Positions 14,245 to 26,588 of a DNA stretch of 64,000 nucleotides are shown piece after piece (within the stretch, counting starts at the first letter, position 1; every line of letters begins with the position of its first letter). The notes under the pieces were generated by a model. The model was not told the DNA's origin and did no database searches. It saw nothing but the letters and a program-made list of their open reading frames with translations. Origin of the DNA: Polaromonas sp. JS666 (lineage in GTDB: Bacteria; Pseudomonadota; Gammaproteobacteria; Burkholderiales; Burkholderiaceae_C). Both the position numbers and the translations under genes were made by a program. The stretch covers positions 1,736,001 to 1,800,000 of the forward strand of contig NC_007948.1 in assembly GCF_000013865.1 (NCBI RefSeq). The letters run 5' to 3'.

Positions 14245-14468
14245 CAAAGGCTTGCAGTTGCACAGGGTGCGCTGCATTTGTACATCTACCTCACACTTTT
14301 GGACTCTACCGACAGAGTCACCGCTTCAGGCTGATTCGCCTGAACCGCATATTCGTTTGATGGTTGGTGTTTTATTAACCATGAACGAATCCTCTCGCAT
14401 CGCGGGGGGTGAAGTTTCCTGTCCTTCGCCAACAAGGCGTTGCGCACAGGTGATGATTGAGAATAAAC

Positions 14469-16343
14469 ATGACTGACTCTTTTGAGGCTCGCGGCGACTT
14501 TTTGCCTGAAGCAAACACCGATACCGACATCCTGGGCGTTCCGGACTTTTCCGATGCTCCCGCCGCTGCCGTGGCTACTTCGCTGGACGCCGTTGCACCC
14601 CAACCCAACGGTTTCGTGAAGCTGGGCCTGGCCAAGGAACTGCTGCAGGCCGTGGCCGACATGGGTTTTACCCAGCCGACCGCTGTGCAACTCGCCACCA
14701 TCCCCAAGGCCATGCAAGGCCTGGACGCTGACGGCGCCGACCCGAAAGCCAAATTCACCGACCTGCTGGTTTCCAGCCAGACCGGCAGCGGCAAGACCGC
14801 CGCCTTCCTGCTGCCCGTGCTGCACACTCTGCTGATGCAGCAGGAAGAAGCCGAGCGCCAGGAACGCGCTGAATTTGAACGCCTGAGCGCGGAAGCCATC
14901 GCCAAGGGCGAAGCCCCTCCGAAAAAGCCCAAGCGCAAAGATCCGACCAATGCCCGCAACTTCAAGGCCGCCACCCCCGGCGCGCTGATTTTGTGCCCAA
15001 CGCGCGAACTGGCCCAGCAAGTCTGCGCCGACGCCATTGACCTGGTTCGCCATTGCCGCGGCCTGCGCATCGCCAACGTGGTGGGTGGCATTCCTTACCA
15101 GCTGCAGATTGCCAAGCTGCAAAACGCCAACCTGGTGGTGGCCACGCCAGGCCGCCTGCTGGACCTGCAGCGCAGCATGCAGATCAAGCTCGACCAGGTG
15201 CAGTTCCTGGTGGTCGACGAAGCCGACCGCATGCTGGACCTCGGCTTTGCCGATGACCTGACCGAGGTCAACCAGCTCACCATTGAGCGCAAGCAGACCA
15301 TGATGTTCAGCGCCACGTTTGCGCCGCGCATCATGCAGCTGGCCACGCGCGTCATGCGCACGCCGCAGCGCGTCGAGATCGATTCGCCGCACGAAAAGCA
15401 CACGTCCATCACGCAGTCACTGCTGTGGGCCGACAACATGACGCACAAGCGCAAGCTGCTGGATCATCACCTTCGCGACACCACCATGAACCAGTCCATC
15501 GTGTTTGCCTGCACCCAGGTGGAATGTGATGGCCTGGCCAATGACCTGGTGCAAGAGGGCTTCAGCGCCGTGGCACTGCATGGTGCCCTGGGCCAGGGTC
15601 TGCGCAATCGCCGCCTGATGGCTTTCCGCGATGGCCGGGTGCAGGTTCTGGTTGCCACCGATGTGGCCGCCCGCGGCCTGGACGTGCCCACCATCACCCA
15701 CGTGATCAACTACGGCCTGCCGATGAAAGCCGAAGACTATGTGCACCGCATTGGCCGTACCGGCCGTGCCGGCCGCGAAGGTCAGGCGATCACCATTGCC
15801 GAGTTCCGTGATCGCCGCAAGATCCAGGACATAGAGCACTACATGCAGCAAAACCTCAAGCCCAGCGTGATTGCCGGTCTGGAGCCGCAGCAGCGTTTTG
15901 CACCGACGTCCGAGCGTCCGCGCGGCAATTTCGGTGGTGATCGCGGTGGTCGCAGCTTTGGCGGCGGCGGCGGTGGTGGCTACGCAGGCCGCAAGCCGTC
16001 CGGCGGCTTTGGCGGTGGTTCGGGTGGTGGGTTTGGCGGCAACCGCGATGACCGCGGCGGCTCCTTCCCGGCGCGTCCTGCGCCGCAGGGCAACGGGTAT
16101 GCCGACCGCACCAGTTTCAATGATCGCGGCCCACGCCGTCAGGACGACCGCGGCTTTGGTAACAACAGCGCTGGCTTCACGCCGCGCGATGACCGCAACT
16201 TTGGCGCCCGCAATGAAGGCTTTGCGCCACGCGCTGACTTTGCGAACCGCAAACCCGCGTTCGCCAAGCCTGCGGGCAAGGTGTTTGTGCCACGCGATGC
16301 CGCCAAGAAGGCGGGTAAGTTTGCCAAACCGGCTCGTGACTGA
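14469..16343 (+). CDS. rhlE: DEAD-box ATP-dependent RNA helicase, RhlE type
   Basis: 624 residues from ATG 14469. It shows the Q motif FTQPTAVQ, P-loop SQTGSGKT, PTRELAQQV, DEAD box VVDEADRMLD, SAT, and the C-terminal HRIGRTGRAGREGQ. Residues from about 480 on form a low-complexity tail rich in G, R, D and F with RGG-like repeats and a basic KKAGKFAKPARD end, as in RhlE-type helicases that bind RNA nonspecifically. An insertion of about 15 residues (LDADGADPKAKFTD) precedes the P-loop and a charged insert rich in E and K follows it. Role inferred: RNA remodelling in ribosome assembly, decay or cold growth. Confidence 0.92.
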   Translation: MTDSFEARGDFLPEANTDTDILGVPDFSDAPAAAVATSLDAVAPQPNGFVKLGLAKELLQAVADMGFTQPTAVQLATIPKAMQGLDADGADPKAKFTDLLVSSQTGSGKTAAFLLPVLHTLLMQQEEAERQERAEFERLSAEAIAKGEAPPKKPKRKDPTNARNFKAATPGALILCPTRELAQQVCADAIDLVRHCRGLRIANVVGGIPYQLQIAKLQNANLVVATPGRLLDLQRSMQIKLDQVQFLVVDEADRMLDLGFADDLTEVNQLTIERKQTMMFSATFAPRIMQLATRVMRTPQRVEIDSPHEKHTSITQSLLWADNMTHKRKLLDHHLRDTTMNQSIVFACTQVECDGLANDLVQEGFSAVALHGALGQGLRNRRLMAFRDGRVQVLVATDVAARGLDVPTITHVINYGLPMKAEDYVHRIGRTGRAGREGQAITIAEFRDRRKIQDIEHYMQQNLKPSVIAGLEPQQRFAPTSERPRGNFGGDRGGRSFGGGGGGGYAGRKPSGGFGGGSGGGFGGNRDDRGGSFPARPAPQGNGYADRTSFNDRGPRRQDDRGFGNNSAGFTPRDDRNFGARNEGFAPRADFANRKPAFAKPAGKVFVPRDAAKKAGKFAKPARD

Positions 16344-16455
16344 GCGGTTGATCAGCCTTTACAGCGCCTGAACAAAGAAAGGCCGCTGCGAACCGCAAGC
16401 TATACCGTGTAAAAGCTGTACTAATAGCGCGTGAGTGAGTGATTTCGGGGTTTTC

Positions 16456-16465
16456 CTAATAGTAA
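16456..16465 (+). repeat. Candidate left attachment repeat of the GMT island (CTAATAGTAA)
   Basis: The same 10 bases occur at 25517-25526, just outside the other end of the GMT gene block. A shorter CTAATAG also sits at 16421 and 25457. A chance 10-base match between two flanks of about 500 bases has a probability of roughly one in four, so this is only a candidate. Confidence 0.35.
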
Positions 16466-16472
16466 GCCAACT

Positions 16473-16503
16473 AAAAGCCGCCGAGAAATCTGCGGCTTTT
16501 TTT
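16473..16503 (+). terminator. Intrinsic terminator downstream of rhlE
   Basis: Stem AAAAGCCGC (16473-16481) / GCGGCTTTT (16492-16500), a 10-base loop and a run of seven T. It probably ends rhlE transcription. Confidence 0.85.
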
Positions 16504-16858
16504 AAGAGTCTCGGGGCACTGCCCCCAACCCCAAGTTCACTAACTCCCGGCGCTGTGCGCCGCCTCCTCTACACGAGGGGCACCGAAGGTGGCGCGTATT
16601 CCAGTCCTTCCTGAGCAGGCAATCCAGTACGCCTTGATCAGCCAGCCTGACGCGGACTGCGCAAGCAGTCCGATCGATCTGATCAAGCGCCTAGTCCCTC
16701 ATCTGTTCTTGCTGGACTTCACAGCCCGATCGATTCATCATCAATCCGATCCATCAAATGCCGGGGCTGGACACCTAGGTGCGGACGCTGGTTATGACTT
16801 TTATCCGGGCGCGTCAGCAGCAATCGTCCTGACGTAGCCGGCCTGTCAGTTGCTAGGG
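16504..16858. other. Non-coding spacer with nested hairpins at the GmtX-hydrolase end of the island
   Basis: No convincing gene. It holds GGGGCA-C-TGCCCC, CGGCGC-TGT-GCGCCG, and a nested structure: CTTGATCAG (16633-16641) pairs with CTGATCAAG (16679-16687) around a perfect hairpin CGGACTGC-GCAA-GCAGTCCG (16653-16672) with a GNRA-type loop. It could be an element end, a structured RNA, or a terminator region for the minus-strand operon. The ends do not match an integron attC consensus. Confidence 0.4.
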
Positions 16859-18367
16859 TTAAATGGCCGTCCGCACAGGCGCAACTTCCGACAACAGCTT
16901 CTCCAGACAGCCTGTCGTGAACTCGGGGTTTTCGATGCTTGGTAAATGCGCCATTCCCGGGAGCGCTTCGCATCGTCCGTCCTCGACCGATTCCGCGATC
17001 CAACGACTGCGCTCCTGAATGTATGGGACATCAAGATCCCCGCACAGAATTCGGATGGGGATCTGAATCTTCCGCAGTTGATCCCAGGCTGAGCATGGAG
17101 GCAGCATCTTGCTGATGCCTTGTGAATCAAGAATGATGCGGTGCATTTCGAGAAACTGAAAGCGGGCGACACCTTGCACCCGTGGATGTTTCGTATATGG
17201 TCCGTCCAGGAACAGCTTGGCTTTCAGTTGGTTCACCGCATCTTTTTCCCCGGATTTGCTCGCCGCCTCAATCTGTTTCAGGACTTGGTGAGTGACCTCA
17301 TCGGTCTCGGGTGCAGGTGCGCCGCTGACTGAGGGAGAGATGAGCAGGAGCGCCGATATACGGTCTGGCATCTCAAGAGCGGCGTCAATAGCGATGCCAC
17401 CACCCTGCGAGCACCCGACAAGAATCGCTTTCTCCCCCTTTGGCACGAGGTGATCGAGCACAGCCTTCAAATCGCCCGTGTTGCTATAAGCCGCATCAAC
17501 AGCGTGTGTTTCCCCGCATCCCCTCCGGTCGTAGGCAATAGTTTTATAGCGCCCTCCAAGAACAGAAACTTGATGACGCCACATCCGGCGATCAGCGATT
17601 GCGGCGTGGAGAAACACAATGGCTTGTCCACTACCTACGTGCTCCACCGCGATGCTTGCGCGACCAGATTGCACGCGAGTGGTAGAGGTAGATAAAGCCG
17701 TGCACATCGAGCTGTCATCAGCAGGCATCACGTGGGTACCAACAATCTTCCGAATCGCTGTCACGTACCCAACTTTGTAGATCGCACGCCCTCTGGGGTT
17801 CAGAACTCGCCCGTGATCGTCCTGTGTCCAGCCCTCATCCTGCATCAGTTTCTCGCTGATGGCATACCGTAGCGCCTCCTTTTCAGAGTCGGTGAGGCCG
17901 GTGGAAGCCGGCAGGATCTGGATCGTATCCTTGGGCTGGCTTGCAGCCACCGTTCTCTGGTCAATCACCACTTCGGTGTTCGCCTTGAGCAGATTTACTT
18001 CGCCCCGCAGCTTCTTGTTCTCGGCCAACACCGCGCCCATGACGCCGCGAACCGCTGGATCGGGAATCTTGTCGAGGACGGCATAGACAGGGTTCTCGCT
18101 GACCTTGCGCACCTTGCGGGTCGCGCCACCCGTATGGCCGGCCCACGCCTGAATCAAGCCCTTGAAGTCATCGCCGGTCTTGTTGTGGATGGTCGATTTG
18201 ACCGGACCCCCGCGCTCCTGGGCGATCCTTGAGATCGTCGCCACCGAGAAGTCGCTACTGCCGCGCTCGTGCTGCTCCCGGCACACGGCATGAATGATGT
18301 CGAGATTCCTGGCCTTGCGCGGCGTCGCGCTGGCCTTGAGTTGTTCCAGCAGTTCATCAGGATGCAT
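16859..18367 (-). CDS. gmtX: GmtX fused in frame to an alpha/beta hydrolase
   Basis: 502 residues from ATG 18367, which follows GTGGAGACAGCG and overlaps the gmtZ end by 11 bases. Residues 1-210 match GmtX: MHPDELLEQL, then GSSDFSVATISRIAQERGG, a charged coiled coil with LAENKKLRGEVNLLKAN, and the closing GRAIYKVGYVTAIRKIVG where GmtX proteins normally stop. Residues from about 230 form a complete alpha/beta hydrolase: FLHAAIADRRMW (oxyanion region), the nucleophile elbow GCSQGG, the acid in CGDLDVPY, and the histidine in GMAHLPS. Internal ATGs at 17728 and 17707 lack ribosome sites, so the fusion seems to be the product. The hydrolase half has visibly lower GC than the GmtX half. Its substrate is unknown. 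Confidence 0.8.
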   Translation of the reverse strand: MHPDELLEQLKASATPRKARNLDIIHAVCREQHERGSSDFSVATISRIAQERGGPVKSTIHNKTGDDFKGLIQAWAGHTGGATRKVRKVSENPVYAVLDKIPDPAVRGVMGAVLAENKKLRGEVNLLKANTEVVIDQRTVAASQPKDTIQILPASTGLTDSEKEALRYAISEKLMQDEGWTQDDHGRVLNPRGRAIYKVGYVTAIRKIVGTHVMPADDSSMCTALSTSTTRVQSGRASIAVEHVGSGQAIVFLHAAIADRRMWRHQVSVLGGRYKTIAYDRRGCGETHAVDAAYSNTGDLKAVLDHLVPKGEKAILVGCSQGGGIAIDAALEMPDRISALLLISPSVSGAPAPETDEVTHQVLKQIEAASKSGEKDAVNQLKAKLFLDGPYTKHPRVQGVARFQFLEMHRIILDSQGISKMLPPCSAWDQLRKIQIPIRILCGDLDVPYIQERSRWIAESVEDGRCEALPGMAHLPSIENPEFTTGCLEKLLSEVAPVRTAI

Positions 18368-21305
18368 CGCTGTCTCCACGGGGGGCGGGCAACATACGTT
18401 TGGCACGTGCCGCATCAAGGATTTCACGGGCGGGTGTCCCGGCGACATTCTCGGCAAGCACGTCCCAGGTCTCGTCGACAATGCCCAGATCGCGCAGCCG
18501 CCGCAGGCCTTCGACGTACTCCAGTGCGCCCTTGAGTGAGCCGGTGCGCGCCTGAATGAGTTGCATGACGGCGTTGCCTGCCGCCAGTTGCTGCCTGGGG
18601 TTCAGGCGGAAGAAGACCGGTGGCATCTTGTTGAATTCGAGCATGCAGTCGAGCAATTGACTGCGCCTGAGAACCGGTTTTCGGGCATCAATCTCGGGGT
18701 AGATCACGGCATTTTCGCAGAGGACTTCGATCTGGTGCAGTTCCGAAGGGGTCTCGGTGAAGGCCACTTTAATGTCGCTCATTTCACCGACCGCCACCAA
18801 CTGCACCCCGTCCTTGTTCGCGTCCTTCATGATCTCCAGCGAGCGGGCGATCAGGTAGTGGGTTGCCTGCATGTCGTTGACCAGCATGCCCATCGCCTCC
18901 GCTTCGGCTTCGTAGCGCTGTGAGAGCCGTTCCAGCTCGCGGGTTTCGGTGAACAGCTGTCCATCACGTTCGCAGTCGGCACGCCGGTTTTCCATCAGGG
19001 TGACTTCTTCATGCAGCTCGTTATGGCGCTCGGAGCGTTCGTGCGCCTCGTAGCTGATGGCGTTGAAGTGCGCCTGCAGGCCCGGCAGGAAGGCGGGACC
19101 GGTCAGGAAGAAACGGCAACGCACGCAGTTGCGCTGCTGCGGGTAGCCGGAGACGGGAGCGTAGATTTGTTCAGTCAACCGCTCTTTGATGCACTCCCCG
19201 CCCACATCGCACATTGCGCCACCGACCGGGCAGATGCCCTTGTCCTCGAAGACAAAGGCGGCTGCCGACTTCTGCCCGATGGCGGCGCGCACGGCATCGA
19301 CGCTCACGCTGGCAAAGCGCTGGCTGACCTGCTCCATCGTCGCATCCATCAGGAAGCGCCGATGGCTGGCTTCATCCGCCGCCAACACGTTGCGCTCGGC
19401 CGCATCCAGCACCTCCTTCATATAGGCGTGCCCGAACTTGGTGTAGTAGAGCGTCATGATGATGCGGGCGTGTCCGGCGATCAGCTTGGACACCACGGCA
19501 ATAGGCAACTGCAGGTCCAGCACCAGATAGCTGATCAGAGACACCCGCAGCGCATGCGGAGGGTAATACGTCATTGTTTTACTGTCATGATCCACAAACT
19601 GGATGGGCGTGCCGTCGTCCAGCGTCTCGTCGTTCTCTGCGCAGCGCTGTTCGAGGCGGGCGAGGAGCAAATACCAGGGGCGGTCGAGCGCGGTCCTTGT
19701 CAGAGGCTTTTGCCGGTCGCGCCCCTCTGCCGCCGCATCGCGAAACAGGAAGCATGCGGTGCCGCGCGCTTCCAGCACCTCGGGGTGGGGCGGGGTGAAG
19801 CCGAAGTGCTTGGACTCCAGATCGCGCCACGCCATGGGCGCCCTGATCGGGTTGTAGCGCTCCTGCCACTGGCGCAGCTTGTCCAGCCAGTACAGCACGG
19901 TCTCGTGGGCCCAGGGAATGATGTAGCCTTTGGCGTTCTCCGGCTTGGTAATGTCGGCGGTCTTGTTGGTGTTGATGAACAGGCCCGCGCCGGATTCGCT
20001 GGCGTTGCGGTGAAACACGCCGCGCTGGTAGGGACGCCTGGCGCTGCCGGTGGCGAGCGGCGAATCGTTCAGCACGAAGCTGCCGCCTTGCGTTCCATGC
20101 AGGTAGCGCCAGGTATCGGCTTCACCGGAGTCCAGCATGCGGACCTGAAACGTGCGCAGCGGCAGCTCCAGCTTCACGTAGAGCGCCACGGCGCGTACCG
20201 GCGACCAGAGTTCGGTCACACGGGGCGGGAGGTCATGTGTTTTTTGCTCGTGCTCGGTCGTATCGCGCTCGCGCCACACGCAGTCCGGGTCGTCGGGGTT
20301 AATGGCTTGGGGGGCCACCATGAACCAGTCCCCGCCATTGCTGCCGCCCTCCATCGACTGCTGCGCCCAGACCCAGTCTCGGAAATGCAGGCCCTCGGCC
20401 AGCATCGTGCGCAGCTCCTTGATGTAGCGGATCGAGAGCGAGGATTTGGTGGTTTCCGTGGGCGCGGCGATTCCAGACCTGGACAGTCGCGCCACGGGAT
20501 TGTGCAGTTCGTGCGGCACGATCCGGTGACCGAGATCGTCCTCGATGGAGAGCTTTTCGAGGAGCACCCAATCGATGAAGTCGGCGACATATTTATGGAC
20601 TTTGACGTCCTCAGCGCTTAGCGAGCCGACGGCCCCTTTGGCTTTGGCCTTGAGCAGCACTTCGCTGAGGCTCGGTTTGGGTGTGGTGCGGGTCAGAAAC
20701 ACCATGGGATGGCGCGGCAGATCGCAAGCCAGGATGTACTGCACCAGAAACTTGTCGAGGGCTATGCGGCGTACGGACACGGCCGACTTTTGTACGCCCA
20801 GCCACTCGGCCGCGAGTTCCTGCCAATGCAGCAGGCGCGGATCAAGGGCCAGCACATGCGCGAACGTGATGTCCGAGCCCTTGCCGGTATGTTTGTTCTG
20901 AATACGCGGAAACGGATTTCTCAGTTGGGCTGGCACCACCCGATGACCAGCGGCATCGGGCTGCGCCAGTGTCGTGCGCAGCACCCAGTCGAGGAAGTCG
21001 CTGATGATGTCGTGCTGTTTTTTTCCTCGCTCTTCGCTTTGCCTGTCCAGTTCCAGTGTTGCCCACAGGTCGGGCTGGCGGGTGCCGGCGTCGAACAGGG
21101 TCGCGGGGCGCTTGTCCAGGGACTGCGCGTGAAGGCAGCGCACGAAGAAGGCGCTGAGCGCAACGGCCTTGTGGCTTGAGCCTTTCTGCTGCGCATACCA
21201 CTCGGCGGCCAGCACCCGCCAGTCCTCGAAGGCCGGATCGAGGGCCAGCAGGAAGCGGAACCCGGGGTCGAAGCTTTGATCGGTTCCCTTAATTTTTTTG
21301 GCCAT
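18357..21305 (-). CDS. gmtZ: GmtZ integrase-like protein of the Gamma-Mobile-Trio (VPA1269 type)
   Basis: 982 residues, the usual size for GmtZ. Residues about 18-135 and 149-276 are an internal duplication: both contain LALDP, then W-x-LAAEW, then F-DWVL and GHR-VP-L-NP. The middle has a degenerate tyrosine-recombinase core: LPLRTFQVR (R384), HALRVS (H584, R587), AGHAR (H612) and LYYTK (Y620/Y621). A cysteine cluster C692, C699, C704, C727 and C730 probably binds zinc. A long charged coiled coil at about 750-810 follows. Presumably it acts with GmtY on DNA. It starts one base after the gmtY stop. Confidence 0.8.
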   Translation of the reverse strand: MAKKIKGTDQSFDPGFRFLLALDPAFEDWRVLAAEWYAQQKGSSHKAVALSAFFVRCLHAQSLDKRPATLFDAGTRQPDLWATLELDRQSEERGKKQHDIISDFLDWVLRTTLAQPDAAGHRVVPAQLRNPFPRIQNKHTGKGSDITFAHVLALDPRLLHWQELAAEWLGVQKSAVSVRRIALDKFLVQYILACDLPRHPMVFLTRTTPKPSLSEVLLKAKAKGAVGSLSAEDVKVHKYVADFIDWVLLEKLSIEDDLGHRIVPHELHNPVARLSRSGIAAPTETTKSSLSIRYIKELRTMLAEGLHFRDWVWAQQSMEGGSNGGDWFMVAPQAINPDDPDCVWRERDTTEHEQKTHDLPPRVTELWSPVRAVALYVKLELPLRTFQVRMLDSGEADTWRYLHGTQGGSFVLNDSPLATGSARRPYQRGVFHRNASESGAGLFINTNKTADITKPENAKGYIIPWAHETVLYWLDKLRQWQERYNPIRAPMAWRDLESKHFGFTPPHPEVLEARGTACFLFRDAAAEGRDRQKPLTRTALDRPWYLLLARLEQRCAENDETLDDGTPIQFVDHDSKTMTYYPPHALRVSLISYLVLDLQLPIAVVSKLIAGHARIIMTLYYTKFGHAYMKEVLDAAERNVLAADEASHRRFLMDATMEQVSQRFASVSVDAVRAAIGQKSAAAFVFEDKGICPVGGAMCDVGGECIKERLTEQIYAPVSGYPQQRNCVRCRFFLTGPAFLPGLQAHFNAISYEAHERSERHNELHEEVTLMENRRADCERDGQLFTETRELERLSQRYEAEAEAMGMLVNDMQATHYLIARSLEIMKDANKDGVQLVAVGEMSDIKVAFTETPSELHQIEVLCENAVIYPEIDARKPVLRRSQLLDCMLEFNKMPPVFFRLNPRQQLAAGNAVMQLIQARTGSLKGALEYVEGLRRLRDLGIVDETWDVLAENVAGTPAREILDAARAKRMLPAPRGDSDAS

Positions 21306-21306
21306 C

Positions 21307-22797
21307 TCAGTTTTTCCTCAACAATTTCGGGTTCGGACCGCTCATCAGTCCCAGCGGGTCGACGTCCTTGAAGCCATAGCGCAGCAGGTCGGGTGGCGGC
21401 AGTACCGTGCCGGCCTTCTCGCGCTCGGCGGCGGCCTCCAGTGCGCGCACGAGCCTGGCCCGATCCGGCTCGGTATAGACCACCTGCGATTCAAGCGACT
21501 TGTGGTGCAGCGCCTTCTTGCGGTAGATCGGGTCAATCTTGGCATCGGCCAGCGCCTGGCCGTAGGCATGGCGATGCCCGTGCGGCGAGGTGCCCAGGGC
21601 TTTGGCAGCTTGCAGCCCAATGCGCTCCACGGCGCGCCGATGCTGACGCTCGAACGAGTCGATGGCATAGGGTTTGCCCTCCCTGGTCACGAAGGCAAAG
21701 GGATGGTCACATTCCAGTTGCGCCCGCTGCGCCATGTACAGAAACCATAGCTTCCAGAACAACTCCCCCGCCCATGGTGGATACCAATTGACATACATGA
21801 AGTGTCCTTTGGAGTCGAGCGCATTGCCTTTCCAGCCGGCGTGCCACTGGTCGCTGCTGGCGTATTCGTCGCGTGGCCGCATCGCGTACTTGCCGTTCAA
21901 GTAGGCCAGACGGTTGCACTTGATGGGCTTGCCCCTGGCATCCAGCCAATCGGGCGGGGCGGTACCCAGACTCGGGTGGTAGATGTGCACCAAGGCCCGA
22001 TCCGGACGGATGGGGTCGGCTGGACGCCTGGATTCGGACACCACGTCCCGCACATAGAGATGAAAGGGCTCGGACATGCGCAGCCCGCCGTAGTGCATCA
22101 GCATGGTGATCAGGATGTCGCGCAGGTTCAGCCGTTCTTCCAGACGCGGGCTTTTCTGTTTGCCCGGCACAATGAAGCCCTTGAACAGCAGATCGTGGAT
22201 GCGATCCTCGGGAAACTTCTTGACCGGTTCATGGTCAATCACAGGCGTGCGCTTGAGCAGGACGTTGCGGGCGCGGGTCATGGCGAGCGACGCGGTTTCC
22301 CGATCCCAGCTGTGCGCCAGAAAGGCGCGGTCGCGCTTCTGATGCCACGCCGCCCAGGCCAGCATTTCTTCGCTGCGCGTGGCCTGGCGCCACGGGTTGA
22401 GCGGCTTGCTGCCCTGGGTTTGTGCCATCCAGTCCGAGAACCCCGAGATGCCCTGCACCAAGGGCCGCACGACCGCCGGGTTGCGTCCCTGCCAGTAGAG
22501 CCCGCTGGGATCGTTGCCGTCGTCGCCCACGGTGCCCGTGTAGAGACGCTGCGTAAAGGTTTCGAACAAGTCCTTGGGATCGTCGAAACAGTCATGGTTG
22601 GCAGCCATGTAGTCGATCAGGAGGCCGACCGCTTGCGTAACCTTGAGCATCCACGCATGGCTGCGCACCTGCACATGCGCCAACAGGTAGTCGACCAGCG
22701 GCTGCAAGGGGCCGTGCTCGGTCAGGATGATGGGGATTTCCGTGACCACGCCGCTGTTGTCGCGATGCACCTTGCCGCGAATCGTGGTGTGCTGCAT
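21307..22797 (-). CDS. gmtY: GmtY tyrosine recombinase of the Gamma-Mobile-Trio
   Basis: 496 residues. The full tyrosine-recombinase set is visible: R240 in GGLRMSEPFHLYVRDV, H406/R409 in SPHGHRHAYG, H432 in KALHHKS and the nucleophile Y441 in QVVYTEP. A long segment (about 250-340) with HPSLGTAPPDWLDARGK separates the arginine boxes, which is longer than in phage integrases and typical of GmtY. It should cut and rejoin DNA at the element's ends. Its ATG overlaps the helicase stop by one base (TGATG), and GmtZ follows after one base, so the operon is translationally coupled. Confidence 0.85.
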   Translation of the reverse strand: MQHTTIRGKVHRDNSGVVTEIPIILTEHGPLQPLVDYLLAHVQVRSHAWMLKVTQAVGLLIDYMAANHDCFDDPKDLFETFTQRLYTGTVGDDGNDPSGLYWQGRNPAVVRPLVQGISGFSDWMAQTQGSKPLNPWRQATRSEEMLAWAAWHQKRDRAFLAHSWDRETASLAMTRARNVLLKRTPVIDHEPVKKFPEDRIHDLLFKGFIVPGKQKSPRLEERLNLRDILITMLMHYGGLRMSEPFHLYVRDVVSESRRPADPIRPDRALVHIYHPSLGTAPPDWLDARGKPIKCNRLAYLNGKYAMRPRDEYASSDQWHAGWKGNALDSKGHFMYVNWYPPWAGELFWKLWFLYMAQRAQLECDHPFAFVTREGKPYAIDSFERQHRRAVERIGLQAAKALGTSPHGHRHAYGQALADAKIDPIYRKKALHHKSLESQVVYTEPDRARLVRALEAAAEREKAGTVLPPPDLLRYGFKDVDPLGLMSGPNPKLLRKN

Positions 22798-24989
22798 CAG
22801 ACCATCCTCTCGAACTGCTCACGCAGCAACGCGCCCAACGCGACATGCCGGCGATCCGAATGGCGCGGCGCTCGTATGGCTGTTTTGGCCGCTTCCACGT
22901 CGCCGACCAGAATCACCTGTTGCTCTGCCCGCGTCACGGCGGTGTACAGCAGCGTGCGATCCAGCAGCTTGCTCTGGCGCACAGGAATGATGACCCGCTG
23001 AAAGCCGCTGCCCTGCGCCTTGTGAATGGTGATGGCGTAGGCCAGTTCCAGATGCGCCAGCAACTCAGGGGTCAGGTCACGCGTGCGTCCGTCATCCCAC
23101 AGGATGCGCCCAAGGCGGCGCTCCGGCGCAATGTCCGGCACGGGTGGCTCCACGGACAGCACGACGCCGAGTGAGCCGTTCTGCAAATCGATCTCCCAGT
23201 CATTGCGCAGACAGATGACAGGATCGCCCACGCGTATACCAGTGCCTTGCGGCTGGTCGAATTCCAGGTTCCAGTGCATCAGCCCTTCACCGTGGGCGTT
23301 GGTGTGGCGCTGGCACAGCGCGTTGATGGCATTCATGCCACCGGCTGCGGCATTGCGCGTGGCGCACAGAATCTGACTGGCACTGCGATCCTGGTCGTAC
23401 AGACGCAGCACGACTTCGTTGATCTGATCCGGTGGACATGCCAGGAAGGCAATGTCGGCGAGAGCGTCGGCGGGCAAATCGGGCCACTCGCCGTCGCGGA
23501 TCAGGGCGGCGGCCTCGGCAATCGCCCCGCCATAGCGCTTGACCTGCGAGAGTTCCACGACGGGAACTTGGGGTTGATGCGCCAGTTCATGCAGCAGCAA
23601 GCCTGGCCCAACCGGTGGCAGTTGGTTCGGGTCACCGACCAATACCACACGGTAGTGGAGCGGCAGATGCCGGATCACCCGATAAGCGGACGGCAAATCC
23701 ACCATCGAGGCCTCATCGATCACCACCACCGCGTTCGAAGGCGCATCATCTGCATTGAAGTGCTTGAGGAAACCGGCGATGGTTTGGGCGCCATGGCCGG
23801 TGGCCTCGCCAATGCGCTTGGCGGCACGCCCGGAGAGCGCCATGGGGTAGATCGTGTGGCCAGCCGCCTCAAAGACGCGAAACAAGCCGCGCAACACGGT
23901 GGTCTTGCCGGTGCCGGCGCCCCCGGTAATGACGCAGAACGGGTTGGCATTCGCCAGTTCCAGCGCCTCGACCTGCTTTTGATGCAAGCTGATGCCGGCT
24001 TGTGCCTGATAGTCGGCGATGAGTTCCGCCAGTGAGTCGGCGTCGAGCAAGGGGTCTGGATTGGCGGCGCGGCGGGCGATGGCTTGGGCCACGCCCTGCT
24101 CCATCACAAAGGGGCCCGGCGCGTGCAGTCGCTCGCCATGGCGGATGAACCGCCCCGCTGATTCGGCTTGCGCCAGTGCCGACCCCAGCACATCGCTTCG
24201 CTGCAACAAGACGCGCAGGCGACGCGCAAGCTCAAGCTCGGGGATGCAGGTGTGGCCGGCGTCAAACGCGGCGTACAGCGCTTCCTCGACCGAGCCCGCG
24301 AGACGTCGCGGGTCGGTGGGACTGAGGCCGAAGGTGTCTTGCGCCAGGGCATCCACGGTGGCCCAGTTGGCGGCAAAGCTCAGCAGGCGATAGGGGTCGT
24401 CCTCGATCTTGCGGGCGGCGTCCTTGCCGAAGAAGTCCAGTACCTTGCGCCCGAGCGCTACGGCAAACCCCTTGGACTGCAGCCATTGCAGGGTAAAGGT
24501 GTTGCCCCACTGCTGCCATGCATCCGCGAGCTTTTGCGCCATCGGCCTGGGCAGTACCTCTGCGAGTCGGTCGACGTCCGACCGGTCGAGCAGGTCGTAC
24601 AAGGCATCGCCAAAGTGTTCCCACAAGCGCCTTGCCTTGACTTCGCCGATGCCCTCGAAGGCTTCGCCCTGACCAAGCAGCGTAATGATGTGCTCGCCCG
24701 AGGGGCGCAGCATTTCCATGGATTCGGCCGTGATGGTGGCTTCGGTGAGCCGGTAGCCATTGACGACTATGGTGTTGGCCTCGGGTGTGCCGGCAATGCG
24801 CCACAGTTGCCCGCATTCGACCGGGGCCTGAAGCAATTGGCTGGAGGCTTTGATGACGTAGTGGGTTTTGGCATCGACGCGCCAGCCTTTGTCGTCCACC
24901 TCGATGCCCGTGAAGATCGCGCCACCCCGCCCACACGGGTTCTGGCTGCGCACGGCACTGATACGCACGGTGACACTTGGCACATTCAT
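22797..24989 (-). CDS. RecD-like superfamily-1 DNA helicase carried by the GMT element
   Basis: 730 residues from ATG 24989, whose ATGA overlaps the upstream stop. The N-terminal third contains helix-hairpin-helix-like segments (FEGIGEVKARRLWEHFGDAL). The helicase core has GGAGTGKTT (P-loop), VVVIDEASMVD, GDPNQLPPVGPG, and the C-terminal AITIHKAQGSGFQRVI and LLYTAVTRAEQQVILVG motifs of RecD2-type 5'-3' helicases. A role in processing element DNA during transfer or integration is inferred from its position. Upstream ATG 25013 would add eight residues but overlaps more of the previous gene. Confidence 0.85.
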   Translation of the reverse strand: MNVPSVTVRISAVRSQNPCGRGGAIFTGIEVDDKGWRVDAKTHYVIKASSQLLQAPVECGQLWRIAGTPEANTIVVNGYRLTEATITAESMEMLRPSGEHIITLLGQGEAFEGIGEVKARRLWEHFGDALYDLLDRSDVDRLAEVLPRPMAQKLADAWQQWGNTFTLQWLQSKGFAVALGRKVLDFFGKDAARKIEDDPYRLLSFAANWATVDALAQDTFGLSPTDPRRLAGSVEEALYAAFDAGHTCIPELELARRLRVLLQRSDVLGSALAQAESAGRFIRHGERLHAPGPFVMEQGVAQAIARRAANPDPLLDADSLAELIADYQAQAGISLHQKQVEALELANANPFCVITGGAGTGKTTVLRGLFRVFEAAGHTIYPMALSGRAAKRIGEATGHGAQTIAGFLKHFNADDAPSNAVVVIDEASMVDLPSAYRVIRHLPLHYRVVLVGDPNQLPPVGPGLLLHELAHQPQVPVVELSQVKRYGGAIAEAAALIRDGEWPDLPADALADIAFLACPPDQINEVVLRLYDQDRSASQILCATRNAAAGGMNAINALCQRHTNAHGEGLMHWNLEFDQPQGTGIRVGDPVICLRNDWEIDLQNGSLGVVLSVEPPVPDIAPERRLGRILWDDGRTRDLTPELLAHLELAYAITIHKAQGSGFQRVIIPVRQSKLLDRTLLYTAVTRAEQQVILVGDVEAAKTAIRAPRHSDRRHVALGALLREQFERMV

Positions 24990-25411
24990 CGCGGCAGGCG
25001 TCCGGTGCTGCACAGCACGCTATCCATCAACCGGTAGCGATCCAGGTCCGCCCGCACCTGGGTGAGTTCGGCGCGCAGGGAGGCGTTTTCTGATTCGAGG
25101 CGCTTGAGACGCGCTTTGTCGGCTGCGACTCGTGGGTTGGGTGTTGCCTGAGCTGCCGCGTCGCTCTCGCCTGTTTCCGCCACAGGCGGCAGGACCTTGC
25201 GCTCACGCAATTGCGTCTCCAGCGTTTTGAGGGCATCCTTGACGCGCGGGTTCTGGAGCAGCGCCGATTTGGCGAATCCGCACTCGCGGGCAATTTCCTG
25301 GCGCGACAGCTGTCCCCGCGCCACCATCTCGCGGAAATCATCGTCGGTTTTGCTGGCCACCCATGAGCGGAAGGTGGCGAGGTTTTGCTCGGATCGTTGT
25401 TGGCCGTTCAT
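24986..25411 (-). CDS. VPA1267-like small protein, first gene of the GMT operon
   Basis: 141 residues. The first 60 look like a helix-turn-helix: SRQEIARECGFAKSALLQNPRVKDALKTLE. A linker rich in A and P follows, then a coiled coil (KARLKRLESENASLRAELTQVRADLDRYRLMD, about 100-131). This matches the small VPA1267-type proteins found beside GMT genes in Vibrio. The role is not known; DNA binding, perhaps autoregulation or directing the recombinases, is inferred. A promoter with a short inverted repeat lies just upstream. No good ribosome site precedes the ATG. Confidence 0.7.
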   Translation of the reverse strand: MNGQQRSEQNLATFRSWVASKTDDDFREMVARGQLSRQEIARECGFAKSALLQNPRVKDALKTLETQLRERKVLPPVAETGESDAAAQATPNPRVAADKARLKRLESENASLRAELTQVRADLDRYRLMDSVLCSTGRLPR

Positions 25412-25418
25412 GGGATTA

Positions 25419-25470
25419 GTAAGGGACTTACAATTAGTTCAAATAATACACCATAGCTAATAGCTTACAA
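25419..25470 (-). promoter_or_regulatory. Promoter and possible operator of the GMT operon
   Basis: On the minus strand TTGTAA (25465-25470), a 16-base spacer and TATTAT (25443-25448) form a good sigma-70-type promoter about 30 bases before the first start codon. An inverted repeat GTAAG-GGA-CTTAC at 25419-25431 lies between promoter and gene and could bind the first gene's product. The region is much richer in A and T than its surroundings. Confidence 0.55.
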
Positions 25471-25476
25471 GACAAA

Positions 25477-25510
25477 AAAATGCCACTCTCTGGATCGAGA
25501 GTGGCATTTT
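25477..25510. terminator. Bidirectional intrinsic terminator at the right edge of the island
   Basis: A perfect 14-bp stem AAAATGCCACTCTC (25477-25490) / GAGAGTGGCATTTT (25497-25510) with a 6-base loop. T runs are present on both strands. It insulates the GMT operon from the Bug gene cluster. Confidence 0.85.
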
Positions 25511-25516
25511 GGGGTG

Positions 25517-25526
25517 CTAATAGTAA
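25517..25526 (+). repeat. Candidate right attachment repeat of the GMT island (CTAATAGTAA)
   Basis: Direct copy of 16456-16465, located just outside the terminator beyond the GMT operon. See the left copy for the chance estimate. Confidence 0.35.
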
Positions 25527-25619
25527 CGACTAGCTACACCATATAACGCAAGGTTTGCAGCGGCCTTTTTCATGGGCCGGAGCGAATCAGGCGGCTGAAC
25601 CGACCTGATTGAAGCGACC

Positions 25620-26588
25620 TTATTCCAGCTTGATGCCGGTTTCCTTGACCACTTTGCCCCAGCGGTCCATCTCCTGCACCATGTACTCCGACATCGCCTC
25701 TGGGGTGGAGTGGGCCACTTCCACGCCAGCGTCGTACAGGGCCTTGCGGGTCTCTGGTGAACTCATCAGCTTGCCAATCTCCGTGTTGAGCCGGGTAACG
25801 ATGTCACGCGGCGTGCCGGCCGGCGCAAGCAGTGCCAGCCACACTGACGCTTCATAACCCGGCACACCCGCCTCCTGCAGGGTGGGAACATCAGGTAGTT
25901 GCGGAATGCGTTTGGCCGTGGTCACGGCGAGCGCCTTGAGGCGGCCCTGCGGTACCTGGGCCAGGGCATTGGGCACACCCGCAAAGCTGCTTTCCACCAC
26001 CCCCGCCACCAGGTCGGTGGCCGCACCGCCGCTGCCTTTGTATGGCACATGCTTGAGCCTGGCACCCGTCATCGACACAAAGAGTCCGCCCATCAGGTGC
26101 TGCGAACTGCCGTTGCCTGAGGACGCATAGTGAATGGTGTCGGGCGCAGCCTTGGCCAGCGCAATGAATTCCTGCACATTGCGGGCCGGCACCTTCGGGT
26201 TGACCAGCAGCACATACGGCGAGTCGACCAGTTTGGAGACCACCGTAAAACTCTTGATCGGGTCGTAAGGCATGTTTTTGTAGATCCACGGGCTGATCAC
26301 ATGCGTGGTCGACACCATCACCAGCGTGTAGCCATCGGGCGCTGCCTTGGCCACGAAGTCGGTGCCGATGATGGAGCCCGCTCCCGCCTTGTTTTCAATC
26401 ACGAACTGCTGCCCCATGGCGGTCGAGAGCCGCAATCCGAGGATGCGGGCGACCACGTCGGTGAAGCCGCCGGGTGCAAACGGAACAATCAGCTTGACCG
26501 GTTTGGTCGGATAGGTCTGGGCCCATGCGGCAGACAGGGACACCGCGAGCAGCGAGCCCAGCAACAATGATCTGGCAATGGCTTTCAT
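25620..26588 (-). CDS. Bug-family (TctC-like) periplasmic binding protein
   Basis: 322 residues with an N-terminal signal peptide ending SLSAAWAQ. The mature part opens YPTKPVKLIVPFAPGGFTDVVARI, the Bug signature loop that holds the carboxylate ligand. These proteins feed tripartite tricarboxylate transporters or act as sensors; no TctA/TctB genes are in the window. Family segments YKGSGGAATDLVAG and FAGVPNALAQV are present. It is last in the FAH-hydrolase-Bug operon, 4 bases after the hydrolase stop. The ligand is unknown but probably a carboxylate handled by the neighbouring enzymes. Confidence 0.93.
   Translation of the reverse strand: MKAIARSLLLGSLLAVSLSAAWAQTYPTKPVKLIVPFAPGGFTDVVARILGLRLSTAMGQQFVIENKAGAGSIIGTDFVAKAAPDGYTLVMVSTTHVISPWIYKNMPYDPIKSFTVVSKLVDSPYVLLVNPKVPARNVQEFIALAKAAPDTIHYASSGNGSSQHLMGGLFVSMTGARLKHVPYKGSGGAATDLVAGVVESSFAGVPNALAQVPQGRLKALAVTTAKRIPQLPDVPTLQEAGVPGYEASVWLALLAPAGTPRDIVTRLNTEIGKLMSSPETRKALYDAGVEVAHSTPEAMSEYMVQEMDRWGKVVKETGIKLE

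Follow-up and report, generated by a model that had tools for sequence, protein, structure and literature searches.

Gamma-mobile-trio (GMT) islands were reportedly described by Mahata et al. in Nat Microbiol in 2024. A literature search under the words GmtX and GmtY returned unrelated titles and abstracts. The SE and GInt elements offer another point of comparison, which concerns general layout and not protein homology (PMC10214605). According to that article, SE elements have the core genes IntA-Tfp-IntB-Srap and GInt elements the core genes GinABCD, and the product of the last core gene (Srap or GinD) has a C-terminal coiled coil (PMC10214605). The same article places one SE copy just behind a terminator (PMC10214605).

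The stretch of DNA analyzed here, referred to as the window, comprises 64,000 nucleotides of Polaromonas sp. JS666 and contains a GMT element of 9147 bp (16400-25546) with CGCAAG on either flank. GmtX, GmtY and GmtZ each score above their NCBIfam cut-offs, and the genes follow the order gmtY-gmtZ-gmtX on one strand, all minus, from 22797 to 16859. The element has definable ends and a site that is empty in other genomes, which marks it as a mobile unit, and neighboring genes within it overlap or abut at their ends. Its gmtX continues in frame into an alpha/beta hydrolase gene. We consider it likely that this open reading frame is a real GmtX-hydrolase join, made when a GMT island acquired a single esterase gene as its cargo. 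The features of the locus are as follows.

14457..16343, plus strand: DEAD-box helicase gene (PF00270, E 4e-38); the island lies inside the terminator hairpin behind it
16394..16399, no strand: 6-bp CGCAAG at the outer edge of the right end
16400..16581, no strand: right end region, with parts common to L007, L009 and L006
16582..16858, no strand: stretch from the hydrolase stop to the conserved right end, with no L009 counterpart by blastn
16859..18367, minus strand: fused gmtX-hydrolase reading frame, 502 aa, 54.6 kDa
16859..17707, minus strand: alpha/beta hydrolase part, Met221 to stop, identified by Pfam profile, relatives and fold
17708..17737, minus strand: linker, residues 211-220, predicted to be disordered; 17737 marks the end of DNA homology to L005, L006 and L009
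17738..18367, minus strand: GmtX part, residues 1-210 (NF040692.1, 243 bits against a 40-bit cut-off; 88% identity to GmtX of Rhodoferax sp. OV413)
18357..21305, minus strand: gmtZ, integrase, its 3' end overlapping the gmtX start (NF047926.1, 1022 bits against 600)
21307..22797, minus strand: gmtY, tyrosine recombinase (NF040693.1, 553 bits against 340)
22797..25013, minus strand: RecD2-like helicase (TIGR01448, E 3e-112, under the model cut-off)
24986..25411, minus strand: VPA1267-family protein (NF040697.1, 176 bits against 90)
25412..25546, no strand: left end region, common to L005, L006, L007, L009 and L016, with a terminator-like hairpin at 25477-25510
25547..25552, no strand: 6-bp CGCAAG at the outer edge of the left end

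The ends of the element were fixed at 16400-25546 from empty sites in the same genus together with the 6-bp flanks. The search for DNA flanking the island covered 61 genomes of the genus, counting that of the window. The gap between the flanks is 37 bp in two genomes (G014 and G008) and, by match ends, 46, 80 and 112 bp in three others (G054, G058 and G020, respectively). Eight empty sites were fetched, and an alignment with the window included five of them. Each of the eight folds into a strong hairpin (-24.9 to -32.6 kcal/mol), with a run of T after it in most. This hairpin serves as the terminator that follows the DEAD-box helicase gene, and the window's element sits in its loop. A TctC-family gene lies on the other side of the island. 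Taken without the host arms, the island ends align as inverted repeats in which 22 of 34 columns agree, with 2 gaps.

Both ends could be placed for four GMT elements, namely those of the window, L009, L007 and, less surely, G036. In all four the mobility genes stand at the left end with the added DNA behind gmtX, and everything besides the mobility genes is found between the 3' end of gmtX and the right end. L009 has almost no cargo, its right-end region starting ~80 bp past the gmtX stop; the window has the hydrolase plus 277 bp between the gmtX part and the right end; and L007 has ~8.5 kb. The right end of G036 lies ~33 kb beyond gmtX with 7 of 28 mismatches, and is supported by an identical 6 bp, GTTTAC, on both sides. 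With the ends so placed, the hydrolase is the sole gene of the island in cargo position, and its in-frame junction with gmtX falls on the cargo boundary. The right-end patterns were derived from close relatives, and distant ends would escape them; in eight more element regions (seven genomes) and six loci they yielded one candidate, G897, for which no left end was found, and in G327 no right end was found within ~49 kb of gmtX. The cargo slot of L007 (L007:10987-17966) holds an MZA-like defense cluster with a C5 cytosine methyltransferase, MzaB, MzaC and weak MzaD matches. The hydrolase half of the window matched none of the defense families of PADLOC.

Several smaller observations concern the ends and their targets. 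Folding places a terminator-like hairpin just inside each island end (16467-16500 and 25477-25510), which may replace the terminator split by the insertion and insulate the island. A terminator pattern scan of 16350-18500 did not list the hairpin at 16467-16500, which its loop limits may exclude, and no Rfam family was found in 16000-26000. An inner motif beside the terminal repeat, ACTCACTCACGCG, is common to right ends (16428-16440, L007:19315 and L009:8416) and is a possible recombinase or accessory-protein site. The 6-bp core corresponds to the hairpin loop plus its closing C-G pair (CTTGCG in the window, CTTCGG in L007 and CCATCG in L009), and the targets of the window and L007 are clear terminators. 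GMT elements here tend to enter a hairpin loop (three of four), the exception being G036 with GTTTAC. The target sequence GTTTACGACTTTAAT occurs a second time in the left flank of the G036 element (L008:2723-2737), perhaps as the relic of an earlier insertion.

The fused frame runs from an ATG at 18367 to a stop at 16859 on the minus strand as 502 open codons, and spans 580 codons from stop to stop. A preceding reading of the letters, here called the sequence-only reading, had described one unbroken frame with full-length GmtX at residues 1-210, and the profile agrees: residues 4-209 align to positions 1-206 of the 207 in NF040692.1 (NCBIfam). It had also proposed a complete hydrolase with intact motifs, and Abhydrolase_6 of Pfam indeed matches residues 250-482 (E 7e-18) within a complete domain of about residues 221-502 which retains GCSQG (Ser320), GDLD (Asp446) and AHLP (His474). 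We take Ser320, Asp446 and His474 to be the catalytic triad, with roles assigned from the motifs. This presumed Ser-Asp-His triad on a predicted canonical fold is that of a carboxylesterase-type alpha/beta hydrolase. The product size of ~54 kDa expected by the same reading corresponds to a computed 54.6 kDa, and the lower GC of the hydrolase half was found again on recalculation (GC 0.561 and GC3 0.582, against 0.602 and 0.754 in the GmtX half). The GC3 of gmtZ and gmtY is 0.79-0.81.

AlphaFold modeling of GmtX alone (mean pLDDT 80, pTM 0.40) suggests that its N-terminal part is helical, that residues 104-130 form a long helix, and that a small C-terminal part closes with a helix over residues 201-209. 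Foldseek against the PDB gave no fold match for GmtX (best E 0.9), and the sequence profile gave a single hit at E 0.52. The model of the fusion has a mean pLDDT of 83.5 and a pTM of 0.62, with hydrolase blocks mostly at pLDDT 91-98 (dips to 73-83) and residues 116-157 and 212-222 below 50. In the underlying alignment, A10, 11 of the 33 rows below the query were checked, and the relative placement of the domains is meaningless because just four GmtX relatives stand behind the GmtX half. The closest solved relative of the hydrolase is an esterase from Thermogutta terrifontis (PDB 4UHC), which tops both the sequence comparison (4uhh and 4uhc tied, E 3e-19) and the fold comparison (E 5e-18, TMt 0.75), but is a stand-alone enzyme. 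Foldseek also matches many other hydrolases, and for this reason a substrate is not nameable from the fold. The 3-oxoadipate enol-lactonase PcaD (TIGR02427) belongs to the same fold family and matches over residues 248-491; an identity as PcaD was rejected at 77.4 bits against a curated cut-off of 255.85 bits. The hydrolase neighborhoods in L014 and L015 gave no clue to the substrate. The esterase is probably an ordinary small-ester hydrolase with no part in recombination.

The DNA similarity between gmtX of the window and its relatives breaks off close to codon 210. By blastn, ten distinct loci reach the 3' part of gmtX, with similarity ending at 17737 for L005, L006 and L009, at 17745 for L011, L012, L016 and L017, at 17754 for L007, at 17819 for L008 and at 17827 for L010; L013 and more distant loci end earlier, and L044 and L045 are repeats of L005 and L006. 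When the window and 22 relatives are aligned, the core stops at roughly one position, and the tails beyond it measure 0 to ~30 residues. A tail of 23 codons past the core is common to L006, L007 and L009 and absent in the window, and the tail of L005 differs. The alignments place the homology break at the end of the conserved GmtX core. They locate the cut point itself, which may be a recombination site or merely the end of constraint. Between the gmtX end and the right end, repeats were limited to two short, weak direct pairs, with no inverted pair. Ten codons separate the end of the core from Met221. The chance that ten random codons at 58% GC are free of stops is about 0.70, which with one frame in three gives a chance of ~0.2 for an accidental in-frame join, given an abutting gene on the same strand. 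Such an accident is thus not improbable.

The same join was present in no other record searched. The whole fusion gave 83 hits among 7999 scored protein candidates, none of which extends over both halves (best coverage 57%). When residues 1-210 were compared with proteins of 276-878 aa, in a search that needs a shared 5-residue word, a second GmtX fusion was found in none of 1014 candidates. In plasmids, 591 records match the whole fusion, none over more than 80% of its length; at one place the match extends over 78% with 24% identity and spans two hydrolase genes there. GmtX alone matches 144 plasmid records, and in the 60 of these that were listed the match is named GmtX, hypothetical protein or nothing at all. 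The GmtX part found no match in phages, and in viral contigs two stretches fit a search pattern, neither of which encodes a relative. Genome surveys found GmtX in 11 of 399 genomes at family level, 4 of 369 at class level and 7 of 399 at order level, counts that each include the window's own genome. The longest listed open frame besides that of the window has 329 codons, with the extra length at the 5' side. A stand-alone GmtX, which is a trait of the relatives examined and not a rule from the GMT study, is lacking in the window only. These searches sustain the earlier statement that other GmtX proteins stand alone, as far as the relatives examined are concerned, and the search for the junction in other genomes that it had called for leaves the fusion known from one genome.

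A junction without an independent record among those searched could be an artefact of assembly or base calling, with a missed stop or frameshift between two separate genes. We regard this as very unlikely, given an assembly of 5.9 Mb in 3 contigs at 100% completeness, 200 bases compared at the junction that contain no native gmtX tail or stop of the L006, L007 or L009 kind, and the lack of a ribosome site for a separate hydrolase at Met214 and Met221. The sequence-only reading had already remarked that the internal ATGs lack such sites, and anti-Shine-Dalgarno pairing supports it as a hint (-2.9 kcal/mol at Met214 and +0.6 at Met221, with -6.4 at the gmtX start, a background median of -4.0 and 10% of the background at -7.4). 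It is a hint and not proof because that table includes several accepted starts whose ribosome sites are as weak as that of Met221. These weak accepted starts leave some room for a hydrolase that is additionally made alone, via an internal translation start or an internal RNA start, as does the proximity of Met221 to the starts of stand-alone relatives. Among 59 such relatives the commonest start falls at residue 226 of the window, five residues past Met221 (22 relatives); in total, 39 have their start beyond Met221, 19 have one that precedes it, and 1 starts exactly there. The GTG codon of residue 251 has a pairing energy of -7.1 kcal/mol, but it lies within the domain, and translation from it would lose the first strands of the hydrolase. 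The pairing energies at Met221 and Met214 speak against separate production, as does a scan of 16350-18500 that found no sigma-70-like site (the scan suits E. coli better than the host), and we think it unlikely.

The hydrolase half might instead be an inactive passenger in decay. It departs from its relatives at 5 of 63 conserved columns (rank 5 of 60), or at 8 of 71 in a smaller alignment (rank 2 of 30), and given these departures some loss of constraint is possible. Set against this are 282 codons without a stop or frameshift, retained catalytic residues and a predicted fold of high confidence, which make decay doubtful; on its sequence features the hydrolase is a rather divergent yet intact family member. 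The intact motifs and the confident models, which extend to most of GmtX, together with a GmtX half that departs at merely 2 of 111 conserved columns, would also suit a fusion that is functional and selected, in which GmtX delivers the hydrolase to the recombination complex and the substrate there is a protein or a regulatory ester. We judge this highly improbable, as none of the 1014 candidates has another GmtX region, none of the 83 hits covers both halves, the linker is predicted to be disordered, and the hydrolase relatives found are stand-alone esterase-like enzymes. The sequence-only reading had offered two options, namely that the mobility operon acquired cargo at its 3' end or that a hydrolase was recruited to recombination. 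The former has gained from the empty site, the position in four of four elements, the break at codon 210 and the base composition, and the latter has no positive support, given the single fusion, the predicted disorder of the linker and the stand-alone relatives.

Capture of the esterase as cargo is favored by these four lines of evidence and, in addition, by the absence of ribosome sites at Met214 and Met221, the variable GmtX tails, the disordered linker and the absence of a second fusion. In such a capture, the cargo would have been attached to gmtX at about codon 210-211, gmtX would have lost its native tail and stop, and the ten codons up to Met221 would by chance have been in frame and free of stops. 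The hydrolase gene would have lost its own ribosome site and would now be translated from the gmtX start, giving one protein of 54.6 kDa in which a flexible linker connects a GmtX domain to an esterase domain. GmtX probably still works within the fusion, since neither the length nor the sequence of its natural C-terminal tail is constant. Two cautions apply: an identical trace would result if a deletion had brought an intact gmtX together with a gene downstream of it, and the join is known from one genome and from sequence alone. The fusion looks like an unusual one-off, an incidental outcome of gene capture and not a new kind of machinery.

By itself, a fusion known once matters little. The cargo place in these GMT islands extends from the gmtX 3' end to the right end, and its boundary can cross the gmtX frame. 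A bolder proposal, which we offer as speculation with rather little expectation that it is right, is that the 3' end of the gmtX frame is the GMT cargo boundary and that the cargo supplies the GmtX tail; a captured gene that lacks a promoter and ribosome site of its own could then be expressed immediately, as part of a GmtX fusion, and some fusions may gain a role in movement or defense. If the tail were routinely set by the cargo, the entry point of new cargo could be predicted and the tolerance of GmtX would be open to a simple test.

Compared with SE and GInt, the window has a similar layout with recombinase genes at the left end (PMC10214605). Both have imperfect terminal inverted repeats and a 6-bp crossover, represented in the window by the 22 of 34 matching columns with 2 gaps and by CGCAAG on both sides (PMC10214605). 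The authors saw no inverted repeat in SE target sites, in contrast to the hairpins at three of four GMT targets here (PMC10214605). The GMT islands are the nearer system: the window shares with them gmtY, gmtZ and gmtX in order on one strand, a VPA1267-family gene upstream, and the character of a mobile island with variable cargo, its relative L007 having defense genes in the same slot. It differs from them in that its GmtX is fused to a cargo protein and one esterase is the sole gene in cargo position.
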